From assembly GCA_020831625.1 (NCBI GenBank), contig JAFIGD010000048.1:1-35653 (forward strand): a DNA stretch of 35,653 bases, given 5' to 3'. The notes under the pieces are model-generated. The model searched no databases, had not been told where the DNA came from, and was given only the letters and a program-made list of their open reading frames with translations. A program made the position numbers and the translations under genes. Shown here piece by piece: positions 1,224 through 5,550 of the stretch; within the stretch, counting starts at the first letter, position 1; every line of letters starts with the position of its first letter. Source of the DNA: Verrucomicrobiota bacterium. GTDB taxonomy: Bacteria > Verrucomicrobiota > Kiritimatiellia > SS1-B-03-39 > UBA6053.

Positions 1224-1291
1224 AGCCTCAAAAGTATAAAAAACGAATCAAAAAATACATAGAACTAAAGGTGATTATGCTGTACAGTTTA
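1224..1291 (+). promoter_or_regulatory. Conserved upstream block A of the PEP-CTERM paralogs
   Basis: TTAGCCTCAAAAGT opens an A-rich stretch that ends in TACAT at 1256-1260. From CAAAAGT to TACAT is exactly 27 bases, as in the two sister blocks at 2974 and 4624. It continues into GCTGTACAGTTTAGAG. The block lies about 100 bases before the coding start. It could be a promoter with its upstream element or a regulator site; the exact boxes cannot be assigned by eye. Confidence 0.55.
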
Positions 1292-1357
1292 GAGTGTAGG
1301 ATGATTGTTACAGTTCCAAATCAAGGATTTAAAATGATACTGAGACAGAAACATAAC

Positions 1358-2239
1358 ATGGAGAACAAAGACATGAAGATACGAACCAATAAACTCGCAA
1401 CCCTGATGACCGCAGGGTTTATCCTGGCAGCAGGTGCCGCGGCACATGCGGCCGTTTTACCTGTAAGCTATGACTTCGGGTCCGGTACGGGCCAAACGAC
1501 CTACCAGGATGCTGGATTTACCTGGAGCGGAGATACGGGTCTAACGATCTCCAATGAATCAGACCACGTCTCCCTGCGCAGAACTGGGGGCGGTAATAAT
1601 GTTCGTGGCGGCATGACCCAAACCTTTGACGGGCTTGGCAATGGGGCCACAAATAATTTCACCATCACCACGCAATTTACCTATGCTACATTGAATCGAA
1701 ACCGGCAAAACGTGCCCAGCAGTCTCATTTTGTTTGCCTCTGGTCAAACTGTAGACGAGCTTAGAGGCATCACATCTGGCAGCAGCGGTATAGGGATTCA
1801 CTTCTTTGCGCAGAATAATACTACTGGCCTAGAAGATTCACTTAGGATTTCTACAGGTCAATCCATTACAGAAGGTGATGCTCCTGGAACGCTTTGGGAT
1901 TCGACTGGCGATAGTAATACATTAGTGCGATCCGGTGACGTGTTTCAGATGACGGTTGATGTCAGCTTTATCGGAGCTGATATGAACATCGACGCAACGC
2001 TTTCCCGCATTGGCGGAACGTTTGACCGTACCAGCGAGGAACTTTTGAGAAGCGTGACCCTTTCTCAAACTGTCCTTGCTGCCGACTACATTGATAATGA
2101 GTTCTTCGGGTTTGGCGGCCGTTGGAGTGGTAATTCAGATACGCATTTGGACACGTTCGCCGTCATCCCCGAGCCCTCCACCCTGGCTCTGCTGGGCATT
2201 GCGCTGGGATCAGTGGTTCTCTTCCGCCGCCGCCGATAA
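1358..2239 (+). CDS. PEP-CTERM sorting domain protein (about 293 aa)
   Basis: This is a secreted, envelope-sorted protein. The signal peptide is KIRTNKLATLMTAGF followed by LAAGAAAHA, with cleavage after AHA likely. The body is a G/S/T/N-rich presumed beta-sandwich with no enzyme motif I know. The tail is IPEPSTLALLGIALG, hydrophobic residues, then RRRR, a complete PEP-CTERM signal. Two starts are possible: ATG 1358 (MENKDMK) or ATG 1373 (MKIRTNK), the latter with GGAG 9 bases upstream. The codons between them are kept with mostly synonymous changes in the sister genes, which favours 1358. The frame stays open upstream to 1271 but without homology. A strong terminator follows at 2293. Confidence 0.88.
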   Translation: MENKDMKIRTNKLATLMTAGFILAAGAAAHAAVLPVSYDFGSGTGQTTYQDAGFTWSGDTGLTISNESDHVSLRRTGGGNNVRGGMTQTFDGLGNGATNNFTITTQFTYATLNRNRQNVPSSLILFASGQTVDELRGITSGSSGIGIHFFAQNNTTGLEDSLRISTGQSITEGDAPGTLWDSTGDSNTLVRSGDVFQMTVDVSFIGADMNIDATLSRIGGTFDRTSEELLRSVTLSQTVLAADYIDNEFFGFGGRWSGNSDTHLDTFAVIPEPSTLALLGIALGSVVLFRRRR

Positions 2240-2292
2240 ATCGGCTAAAGACCGCAAGACAGCGTTTTTCCGAGATTCGGAAAACTCAAAGC

Positions 2293-2325
2293 CCCCGTTT
2301 CCGTTCATCGGAAACGGGGTTTTTC
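2293..2325 (+). terminator. Rho-independent terminator
   Basis: CCCCGTTTCCG (2293-2303) and CGGAAACGGGG (2309-2319) form a perfect 11-base-pair stem with loop TTCAT, followed directly by TTTTTC. It lies 54 bases after the stop of the PEP-CTERM gene. Its core, TTTCCG...CGGAAA, resembles the twin palindromes at 26332-26380. Confidence 0.92.
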
Positions 2326-2973
2326 TGTTCTTGTTCTGCTCCACCGTGTTTTTACAGAAGGAAAGGAAGGGAACGAAGGCTTTTGGACAGGATAACCGGA
2401 TGGACGGGATTCGCTTTTAGGAGACTTGGGAGGAGCGTGTGATGGGGTGATGAAATTCCCATCAACGCATCCGCCATTGCCCTGTTGCCTCCGCCGCCGG
2501 GTCTGACCCGCGAATCCCTCATAATCTTAATCTTAATCTTAATCTTAATCTTAATCTTAATCGTAATCCTAATCCTCATCCTAATCGATCCCGATCCCGA
2601 TTACGATTTGTGGGCTCATATCGCATCCAAAATCAGGCGGTCCCTTGGGGCGACGCGGTATTTGTGCGACGGCATCCCCAACGGGGAGACTCACCGTAGC
2701 CGAGGGCAATGGGGTGTCTCACACCCCGCCGCCCACGGAACCAAATCAAACCGCTCCGCCAACCCTGAAGGGGTTGTTCACCGGTTTGTGGATGGGGGAG
2801 GGCTCCCTTCAGGATGCGATATTTCAGTTGTGTTTGCACCTGTGTTTTACAGAAGGAAGCGAAATGCACGTCTATCCTTCGGATGATCCTGCGATCCGGG
2901 TCAGAATATGGGGAATCTCCCGGGTTGATGAAACGGGTTGATGAAAACGGTCCGGACGGCTTCGCTACAAACT
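2326..2973. other. Gene-free, repeat-rich intergenic region
   Basis: No convincing gene is present. The region holds short strings of a kind I recall as scattered in intergenic DNA of many environmental bacteria: TTTTTACAGAAGGAAAGGAA (from 2350), a GGACAGGATAACCGGATG-type stretch (2389-2406), and a second TTTTACAGAAGGAAGCGAA (from 2846). A hexamer array occupies 2522-2607. From about 2638 to 2800 a GC-rich stretch has the flavour of a dispersed repeat. The part at 2893-2935 has a diverged second copy at 10428-10472, inside a sulfatase reading frame. Open frames on both strands here are low-complexity and lack start signals or homology. Confidence 0.55.
2522..2607. repeat. Hexanucleotide tandem repeat (TAATCT and variants)
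   Basis: Six perfect TAATCT units (2522-2557) are followed by variants TAATCG, TAATCC, TAATCC, TCATCC, TAATCG, then ATCCCG, ATCCCG and ATTACG in the same six-base rhythm. The minus strand would encode a Lys-Ile dipeptide run, which is an artefact of the repeat. A second array of the same TNATCN type lies at 21282-21323. Confidence 0.95.
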
Positions 2974-3050
2974 TTAGCCTCAAAAGTGTAATAAAAGAAA
3001 CAAAAAGTACATTGCGGTGAAGCTGGTATTGCTGTATGATTTAGTAAATA
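2974..3050 (+). promoter_or_regulatory. Conserved upstream block B of the PEP-CTERM paralogs
   Basis: It starts TTAGCCTCAAAAGTGTA, identical to block A over its first 14 bases, and reaches TACAT (3008-3012) 27 bases after CAAAAGT (2981). It continues into GCTGTATGATTTAG, matching GCTGTACAGTTTAG of block A. It lies about 100 bases before the next PEP-CTERM gene. It is probably the promoter region of that gene. Confidence 0.55.
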
Positions 3051-3113
3051 AATCAAAAAGATTCCTTTGCCATCCCACGGAATCTCTAAAACAAAAGTAT
3101 ACATAAACCCTGC

Positions 3114-3893
3114 ATGGAGACGAAAGACATGAAGACACTAACGAATAAAATCGGAACCCTCATGACTGCCGGGTTTATCCTGGGAGCAGGTGCCATGGCG
3201 CATGCGTCTTTCATCGACGTGAGATTTGGTTCGAACTTTGACGGATTTGGCGGGTTTTCCCCTGGAGGGAATGGAGATTGGACTGAACTTGCCGGGGGAA
3301 TCAATTTCCTCAGAGCCAGTGGCAGCAATTCAAATGGAGCTCTTTTGACCCAACTGTCCGGTGATGATGCCTTAAGTCAGGAAGCCGGCAGCAGATATGT
3401 CTTCACGTCCATGGTGCAATACAACAATGTCGGCAGCGGTGGCAGTGCAAACGTTTCCATGTCCCTGTTTAGCGGCCAAACAAATGCGGCATTTGGGATT
3501 ACGCTGAAAATGTTTGGAGCGGATAACACCTTTCAGATTGATACCGGGCTCAATCAATTTAATGCTGTTGGCGATGCTATAAAAACGTGGGAGGGTGAAG
3601 CCTTTGGATCCGGGGCCTTGTTTACGCTGGAGGGCATGCTGGATTTCACAGAAGACAACGTGGATGTTTTGTTCAGGTTGACAGATGAAAACGGCTATTC
3701 AGACACCGTGAGTCGAACGCTGGCAAAAGGGGATTGGTCCGGTGGCAATTATCATGGTATCGGTACCCGAAATGCGGGGGGGAACGCGAATTTCGATGTC
3801 ATCACCTTTACCGCGGCGATCCCCGAGCCCTCCACCCTGGCTCTGCTGGGCATTGCGCTGGGGTATGTGTTTTACCGCCGTCGTCGTCGATAA
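3114..3893 (+). CDS. PEP-CTERM sorting domain protein (259 aa)
   Basis: This is a secreted, envelope-sorted protein and a paralog of the gene at 4723; both share FGSN.DGFGGF near the mature N-terminus and FALFTLEG-like and TLTD-like segments later. The signal peptide ends near AHA. The C-terminus is complete: IPEPSTLALLGIALG, a short hydrophobic stretch, then a run of R. Start choice is ambiguous: ATG 3114 (METKDMK) or ATG 3129, which has GGAG 9 bases upstream. The MENKD/METKD lead is kept between paralogs, so I use 3114. The body looks like a lectin-like beta-sandwich, but no binding motif is identifiable, so its role is unknown. Confidence 0.88.
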   Translation: METKDMKTLTNKIGTLMTAGFILGAGAMAHASFIDVRFGSNFDGFGGFSPGGNGDWTELAGGINFLRASGSNSNGALLTQLSGDDALSQEAGSRYVFTSMVQYNNVGSGGSANVSMSLFSGQTNAAFGITLKMFGADNTFQIDTGLNQFNAVGDAIKTWEGEAFGSGALFTLEGMLDFTEDNVDVLFRLTDENGYSDTVSRTLAKGDWSGGNYHGIGTRNAGGNANFDVITFTAAIPEPSTLALLGIALGYVFYRRRRR

Positions 3894-3965
3894 ATCGGCA
3901 TACGACCGCAAGGTTATTCCGAAGCATCGGTTCAGTCGGTCCGGACGGATGCGCGGAGATTGATA

Positions 3966-3989
3966 AACGAAAGCAGGTTCTCGTTTTCC
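3966..3989 (+). terminator. Decayed terminator-like string
   Basis: AACGAAAGCAGGTTCTCG followed by TTTTCC resembles the right arm and tail of the hairpin at 181-216, but the left arm is not intact here. It lies about 70 bases past the PEP-CTERM stop and is probably a degenerate terminator. Whether it still works is doubtful. Confidence 0.3.
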
Positions 3990-4043
3990 TGACCGGGCCG
4001 TACGTTGTTTCCTCCCCAGGTTCGGCTGTGGATGGCTTCCGCC

Positions 4044-4555
4044 TTAGAAAGAGCCCCGGCGCACCACTATTGGCGGGACCCGTTCCAGCAATCCTGTTTC
4101 TTTGTCTCCGGAAGCGATCCTCCGTATGCGGGAAACGGCATGCTGGGCAATCCGGTCCATGTCCTGCTGGATTGTAGTCATCGGCGGGTCGGTATGTTCG
4201 CCGCGCTGCGCACCGTCATAGCCGATCAATCTGACGGTTTCCGGGACTTGGACGCCCAAATACGCCAGCACCTCAACAAAATTTGTGGCCAGCCGACCGT
4301 CCGTGACAAAAGTTTATTCGGGAGCGCTTCGAGCCAGTCGTCTTCGTTCAGCTGCCGCAAGGCGCGCCAGACCGAGTCCCGGCTCAGTCCGAAATGATCG
4401 GAGAGCTTGCGGACGGGAGGGAGCTTCCCGCCGGGTTGGAGCTGATTGGCCTGGATAAAATGCTGTATCCGGGAGTACGCGGCATCCCGGCGGCGGGTAT
4501 CCGTGTCGATTTTCAGAGGTTTTTCAATATTGAGAATGGTGCTCATTTTCTTCAT
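4044..4555 (-). pseudogene. Relic of a GntR-LacI type transcriptional regulator
   Basis: The first frame (4555 down to about 4300) encodes a GntR-type winged helix: residues about 22-75 include QLQPGGKLPPVRKLSDHFGL and SRDSVWRALRQL. It should continue into a LacI-like sugar-sensing domain of about 270 residues. Instead, after LEALPNKL the reading shifts frame and only the very end of such a domain follows (down to 4044): FVTDGRLATNFVEVLAYLGV, RLIGYDG, PPMTTIQQD, ending in VVRRGSF. So most of the sensor is deleted and the remaining end is out of frame (apparent -1 shift at a run of four T). The intact frame would give a 109-aa DNA-binding stub. It may once have controlled sugar genes nearby; it could still bind DNA without responding to a sugar. 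Confidence 0.85.
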
Positions 4556-4623
4556 CTACTCTACCTGAAGTCTGTGAATACAGTCTGGACCGCTTCGGTG
4601 ACATAACGGTCAGTCACAAAACA

Positions 4624-4712
4624 CAAAAGTATAAAAAAGAAAATGAAAAATACATAGCCGTGATGATGATTTCTTCATAGAATGTACTGTAATATTTCAG
4701 AGTCCTCCAGGG
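4624..4712 (+). promoter_or_regulatory. Conserved upstream block C of the PEP-CTERM paralogs
   Basis: CAAAAGTATAAAAAAGAAAA begins the block and TACAT (4651-4655) follows 27 bases after CAAAAGT, the same spacing as in blocks A and B. Downstream, TACTGTAATATTTCAGAG (4685-4702) parallels GCTGTACAGTTTAGAG of block A. The block sits 68 bases before the gene start, between it and the divergent regulator relic. Confidence 0.55.
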
Positions 4713-4722
4713 CGCGGATCGT

Positions 4723-5448
4723 ATGAACAAAGAGAATAAGGATATGCAGACTATACTGAAAAAAATTGGAATCCTTTTGAGTGCGGGATGTATACTGGGA
4801 GCGGGCGGCACGGCACACGCGTCCAGCATCGAGGTGAATTTCGGGTCGAACCGCGATGGTTTCGGCGGTTTTACCCCGTTGGGATGGGGATCGTTTACGG
4901 AGGAAACCGATTCAATCCTCTACCAGGGTCCCGGCAGTAACCGCAACCGAAACTCAACGCTTATGACGGGCGCGCTGACGGGAGAGAACGCATTGAGTCG
5001 GGCCGAGGGCAGCAGCCACACCTTCGTTTCGGTGATACAGTTCAACAGCACAACGGGTAGCGGCGCCAGTCGAAACGTTTCCATGGTTCTGTTTGGCGAT
5101 CAAGTCGGGACAAACGGCATTTCGCTTAAGCTGCATGAAGCGCGGAACAGCTTTCAAATCGATCTTGGGCTCAATAACTTCAGTTCTGAATCGACTCCGG
5201 GAGCGACAAAAACGTGGGGTGGGGCACCTTTTGCATCCGGGGCCGTTTTTACTCTGGAGGGTACGGTGCGTTTCACCGCAGACGACGTGTTTGTGACGTT
5301 TACGCTGACCGATCATGCCGAGGCTCCCTTTTCGGACACAGTCGCCCGAACCATCCCGATCTCCTCGCTTTCGGGTGATTTTCATGGTTTTGGCTCTCGT
5401 AACCGGGGGCTGAACTTTGAGGCGCAGCGCTTCACCACGCTTCCCTGA
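4723..5448 (+). pseudogene. PEP-CTERM paralog that has lost its sorting tail (241 aa)
   Basis: The protein is a clear paralog of the gene at 3114 (signal peptide ending AHA, then VNFGSNRDGFGGF, FTLEGTVRF, FTLTDHAE). It stops at TTLP with no PEP motif, helix or arginine cluster. The DNA just before and after the stop (5441-5470) still lines up with the sister gene's IPEPSTLALL codons: removing one C in TTCCCTGATCC gives LPDPAPRLCP. So a frameshift seems to have ended the frame, and the tail then decayed. If expressed, the product would be secreted but not sorted to the envelope. Whether to call it a gene or a pseudogene is open; the main body is intact and may still function as a soluble protein. 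Confidence 0.75.
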
Positions 5449-5550
5449 TCCTGCACCCCGGCTCTGCCCCCTTTCAATCCTCTCAATCCTCACAACCCCG
5501 AAACCGCCTTCCGCCTCTCAGTGCAAAACGCGATTTCCCTTCCCTCTATA

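Follow-up and report, generated by a model that had tools for sequence, protein, structure and literature searches.

The window, the whole 35,653-nucleotide stretch of DNA analysed here, contains three neighbouring related genes that are each preceded by an A-rich block of fixed internal spacing. The question raised by this locus is whether the block belongs to a regulatory system for PEP-CTERM surface proteins, whether it serves these genes only, or whether it is a relic of their common descent. The evidence points to a real, local and probably functional promoter feature of the three paralogs, which probably boosts the transcription of these genes for secreted proteins. The elements involved are the following.

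1229 to 1260, forward strand: A-rich block copy 1, occupying −66 to −35 of the predicted promoter.
1260 to 1288, forward strand: predicted sigma-70-type promoter of gene 1, with −35 TAGAAC (1260-1265), a 17-bp spacer and −10 TACAGT (1283-1288); weak alone and called by alignment.
1373 to 2239, forward strand: gene 1, encoding a secreted PEP-CTERM protein; start revised from 1358, with a GGAGA ribosome-binding site upstream.
2981 to 3012, forward strand: A-rich block copy 2.
3012 to 3040, forward strand: predicted promoter of gene 2, with −35 TTGCGG (3012-3017), a 17-bp spacer and −10 TATGAT (3035-3040).
3129 to 3893, forward strand: gene 2, encoding a secreted PEP-CTERM protein; start revised from 3114.
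4624 to 4655, forward strand: A-rich block copy 3.
4655 to 4683, forward strand: predicted promoter of gene 3, with −35 TAGCCG (4655-4660), a 17-bp spacer and −10 TAGAAT (4678-4683).
4744 to 5448, forward strand: gene 3, secreted paralog without the PEP-CTERM tail, its frame being closed by a stop codon at the expected beginning of the motif.

The starts originally predicted for these genes (1358, 3114 and 4723) give way to likelier ones, namely 1373 and 3129, which both lie about 8 nt 3′ of a GGAGA, and 4744, chosen by homology. The PEP-CTERM motif (Pfam PF07589, TIGR02595) is present in genes 1 and 2 and absent from gene 3, whose frame ends with RFTTLP and a stop codon where the other two have IPEPSTLALLG; the description of all three as PEP-CTERM genes does not hold for the third. 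Gene 3 has apparently lost the tail, and its protein would be released instead of being sorted by exosortase. Degraded PEP-CTERM-like coding persists after its stop codon, at 5420-5480 (LP-stop-SCTPALP). Genes 3 and 2 are 52% identical, a fourth closely related gene lies on contig 11 at 15392 (40% identical), and the domain of these paralogs is also found within a large protein on contig 6. A sequence search of solved structures gave no match, and the AlphaFold model of gene 2 (pLDDT 53) is too poor for use.

The block itself is exactly as first described. It is 32 bp long, with CAAAAGT at one end and TACAT at the other, and in all three copies (starting at 1229, 2981 and 4624) the distance between the starts of these two motifs is 27 bp. 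TTAGCCT in front of the block and GCTGTA...TTTAG behind it are common to copies 1 and 2, also as described. Twenty-four of the 32 columns are identical in all copies, and 7 of these are not A. Composition-preserving shuffles of each copy average 9.2 invariant columns and do not exceed 16 (20,000 shuffles), so the likeness goes beyond mere A-richness. Searched with up to 3 mismatches, a degenerate 31-mer of the block matches the 4.89-Mb assembly three times, always at these genes. The pattern CAAAAGT-N20-TACAT likewise occurs without mismatch only at the three block sites; one mismatch adds five further places in the genome, all lacking the A-rich filling, and a reversed control pattern yields more chance matches genome-wide. 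Among 96 relatives, three of them of the same genus, the block is absent except for one poor match with 3 mismatches. An Rfam search gave no match, and contig scans for relatives found none.

Directly behind the block lies a sigma-70-type promoter, located by a joint scan in which fixed sigma-70 matrices were applied at every offset from the block with spacers of 16-19, the score being summed over the three copies (520 combinations). The best placement (offset +31, spacer 17) scores 16.6, and its one-base neighbour comes next with 4.0. For random triples drawn from other upstream regions the highest score is 5.3 (60 trials). When the columns of the three-way alignment are shuffled as units, which preserves the relatedness of the copies, the mean is 2.2 and the maximum 16.4, and none of 2000 shuffles attains the observed score. 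A pair of sigma-70-type hexamers 16-18 bp apart is thus found at one shared place in all copies, and in each of the three the first base of the promoter is the last base of the block. All three −10 hexamers share their first, second and sixth letters, which are the most constrained ones of TATAAT, and vary in the remaining positions. The −35 hexamers match TTGACA poorly, at 3/6 positions. Scanned singly, genes 2 and 3 select the aligned promoter, and gene 1 scores better elsewhere. In this region a generic consensus scan predicts promoters no more often than chance would, and the aligned three are not among them, so the call rests on the three-way alignment. Fixed matrices were used because expectation-maximization for a general sigma-70 motif on 52 upstream regions drifted to an uninformative T-rich motif.

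With the −10 hexamer set at −12 to −7, the block spans −66 to −35 and can be compared with the UP element of E. coli, whose consensus has A-tracts at −57 to −54 and −44 to −41 and a T-tract at −53 to −47 (as quoted in PMC5664571). At the two A-tract positions the copies together carry 11/12 and 12/12 A, and the A-tract sum is highest in the register of the aligned promoter (25 registers tried). The block thus resembles the E. coli element in being A-rich, in lying immediately 5′ of the −35 hexamer and in having its A-tracts, including the proximal one, at the same positions in 3/3 copies. It differs in reaching to −66, in having conserved letters other than A (C, G and T) at both ends and in having T at only 1/21 positions from −53 to −47, and contact with the alpha subunit is a prediction. 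Since the T-tract is missing, the block is termed UP-like and not an UP element; the match is one of place, incomplete in sequence. An A/T excess before the −35 hexamer of other predicted PEP-CTERM promoters in this genome seemed real against shuffles but disappeared against a position-matched control, so the architecture cannot be called usual here.

The explanation favoured, with somewhat better than even confidence in the reading as a whole, takes the block as the 5′, UP-like portion of a sigma-70-type promoter. This promoter would have been copied with the gene in a local duplication, and selection would since have preserved the block, the leader and the gene bodies having meanwhile diverged. 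The −35 (TWGMVS) and −10 (TAnnnT) hexamers, with their 17-bp spacing, would be bound by RNA polymerase carrying the housekeeping sigma factor. The A-tracts near −57 and −44 would strengthen this binding, most likely through the C-terminal domains of the alpha subunits, as an UP element does. Both transcription from this promoter and the effect of the A-tracts are deduced from DNA sequence. Counting against the UP-like reading, the block has more conserved non-A letters at its ends than A-tracts need.

These letters (CAAAAGT, TACAT) speak for another reading, in which a sequence-specific activator peculiar to the gene family would bind the block at two sites (AAAARTRYA) about 21 bp apart, just 5′ of the −35 hexamer. 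The exact length of the block in all copies agrees with such a site, as does its position, which is typical of activators, and the best internal repeat falls at a shift of 21 in 3/3 copies. The 21-bp direct repeat is nevertheless not significant overall, being equalled in 32% of column shuffles, and the genome holds no further site of the family. The sole adjacent candidate regulator is broken: between genes 2 and 3, at 4060-4555 on the reverse strand, lies a GntR-family gene with the remnant of a LacI-like sensor in another frame. It was rejected as the regulator of the block since it is truncated and its intact-looking relative in a same-genus genome (79% identical, 271-aa open frame, L099) adjoins another gene, with no block seen upstream. 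A private activator is therefore unlikely, though it merits consideration. The further proposal that a private regulator of the 32-bp block co-regulates the tandem secreted-protein set, as a local surface-protein switch apart from the other PEP-CTERM genes, is decidedly improbable; if true, the set might perhaps act in concert with the polysaccharide-degradation genes nearby. These form an adjoining cluster at 7708-33872 that comprises two alginate-lyase-like proteins, four sulfatases, a GH2 enzyme, an alpha-L-fucosidase, a GDSL esterase and a family 8 polysaccharide lyase.

A promoter preserved by selection must also be weighed against a block without function, similar only because the copies share ancestry or because a 5′ module made of promoter and signal peptide recently underwent gene conversion. 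The three genes are indeed neighbouring paralogs, and the signal-peptide codons of genes 1 and 2 show unusually little divergence (dS 0.41, compared with 2.55 for the mature part). For the three pairs, dS is 0.41, 1.02 and 0.89 in the signal-peptide codons (28 codons; rough values) and 2.55, saturated and 1.17 in the mature part. The neutral identities predicted from the signal-peptide dS (Jukes-Cantor) are about 0.68, 0.44 and 0.48, against ungapped identities of 0.84, 0.84 and 0.78 for the block. DNA flanking the block within the module is more diverged, with ungapped identities of 0.58, 0.35 and 0.28 in the 60 bp before it and 0.31, 0.28 and 0.44 in the 32 bp from +59, although gapped alignment raises flank identity to 0.55-0.71 and narrows the contrast. 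The promoter offset has been preserved, and copy 3 retains 78-84% block identity despite a signal-peptide dS of 0.9-1.0. Descent or conversion by itself is thus improbable, and selection on a common promoter region, as originally proposed, is supported by the fixed-offset sigma-70-type promoter and by block identity above the neutral prediction. The accompanying argument from diverged gene bodies stands for copy 3 and carries less weight for copies 1 and 2, given the likeness of their signal-peptide codons; as genes 1 and 2 may share a younger, possibly converted 5′ module, the case for selection lies mainly with copy 3.

Genes 1 and 2 are alike at both ends, in the signal peptide and in a 44-nt identical stretch coding for PEP-CTERM, and their bodies are only distantly related, a pattern that would fit exchange of a body or conversion of the ends. 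Another PEP-CTERM gene matches the 3′ stretch to within 4 bases, so the likeness there is partly common usage.

The remaining alternative, a dedicated PEP-CTERM regulatory site, draws on the PrsK/PrsR/RpoN-type regulation reported in Proteobacteria (PMC9850573), where the RpoN-dependent pepA promoter of Aquincola tertiaricarbonis carries TGGCAC and CTGCTT (PMC9850573). As with pepA, the block sits upstream of PEP-CTERM genes, two of the three here; unlike pepA, it belongs to one local family with one gene that is not PEP-CTERM, no sigma-54 −24/−12 element (GG-N10-GC) occurs in the three upstream regions, and none of the PrsR-like response regulators of the genome scores above the curated cut-off. 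The genome has 64 PEP-CTERM motif matches and two exosortase-family matches. The search for the block before other PEP-CTERM genes, proposed with the original prediction, returned matches at these three genes only: it is absent upstream of the 49 further PEP-CTERM genes with a credible start, where the best score is 14.6 against 45-48 for the three. Shuffle p is below 0.05 for 6/49 of these upstream regions (mean p 0.47), and one of the 49 has a 31-nt stretch with at least 20 A. The fourth paralog also lacks the block, and its upstream region has an A/T-rich stretch of other sequence. A PEP-CTERM site of the PrsK/PrsR and sigma-54 kind, or an equivalent, can be set aside as very improbable.

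The block is restricted to three genes and does not serve as a general PEP-CTERM surface-protein switch. A literature search found nothing on the control of PEP-CTERM genes in this kind of bacterium, and the case argues against a single shared site for the whole PEP-CTERM set of this genome while supplying a concrete, testable promoter; it is otherwise an ordinary case of promoter conservation among tandem paralogs. Other short sequences also occur between the genes. A tandem run of TAATCT-like hexamers lies at 2521-2590, between genes 1 and 2, and a compressed likeness of both block ends, CAAAAGTATACAT, at 3092-3104, about 25 bp 5′ of the start of gene 2; the genome has just two occurrences of AAAAGTNTACAT.
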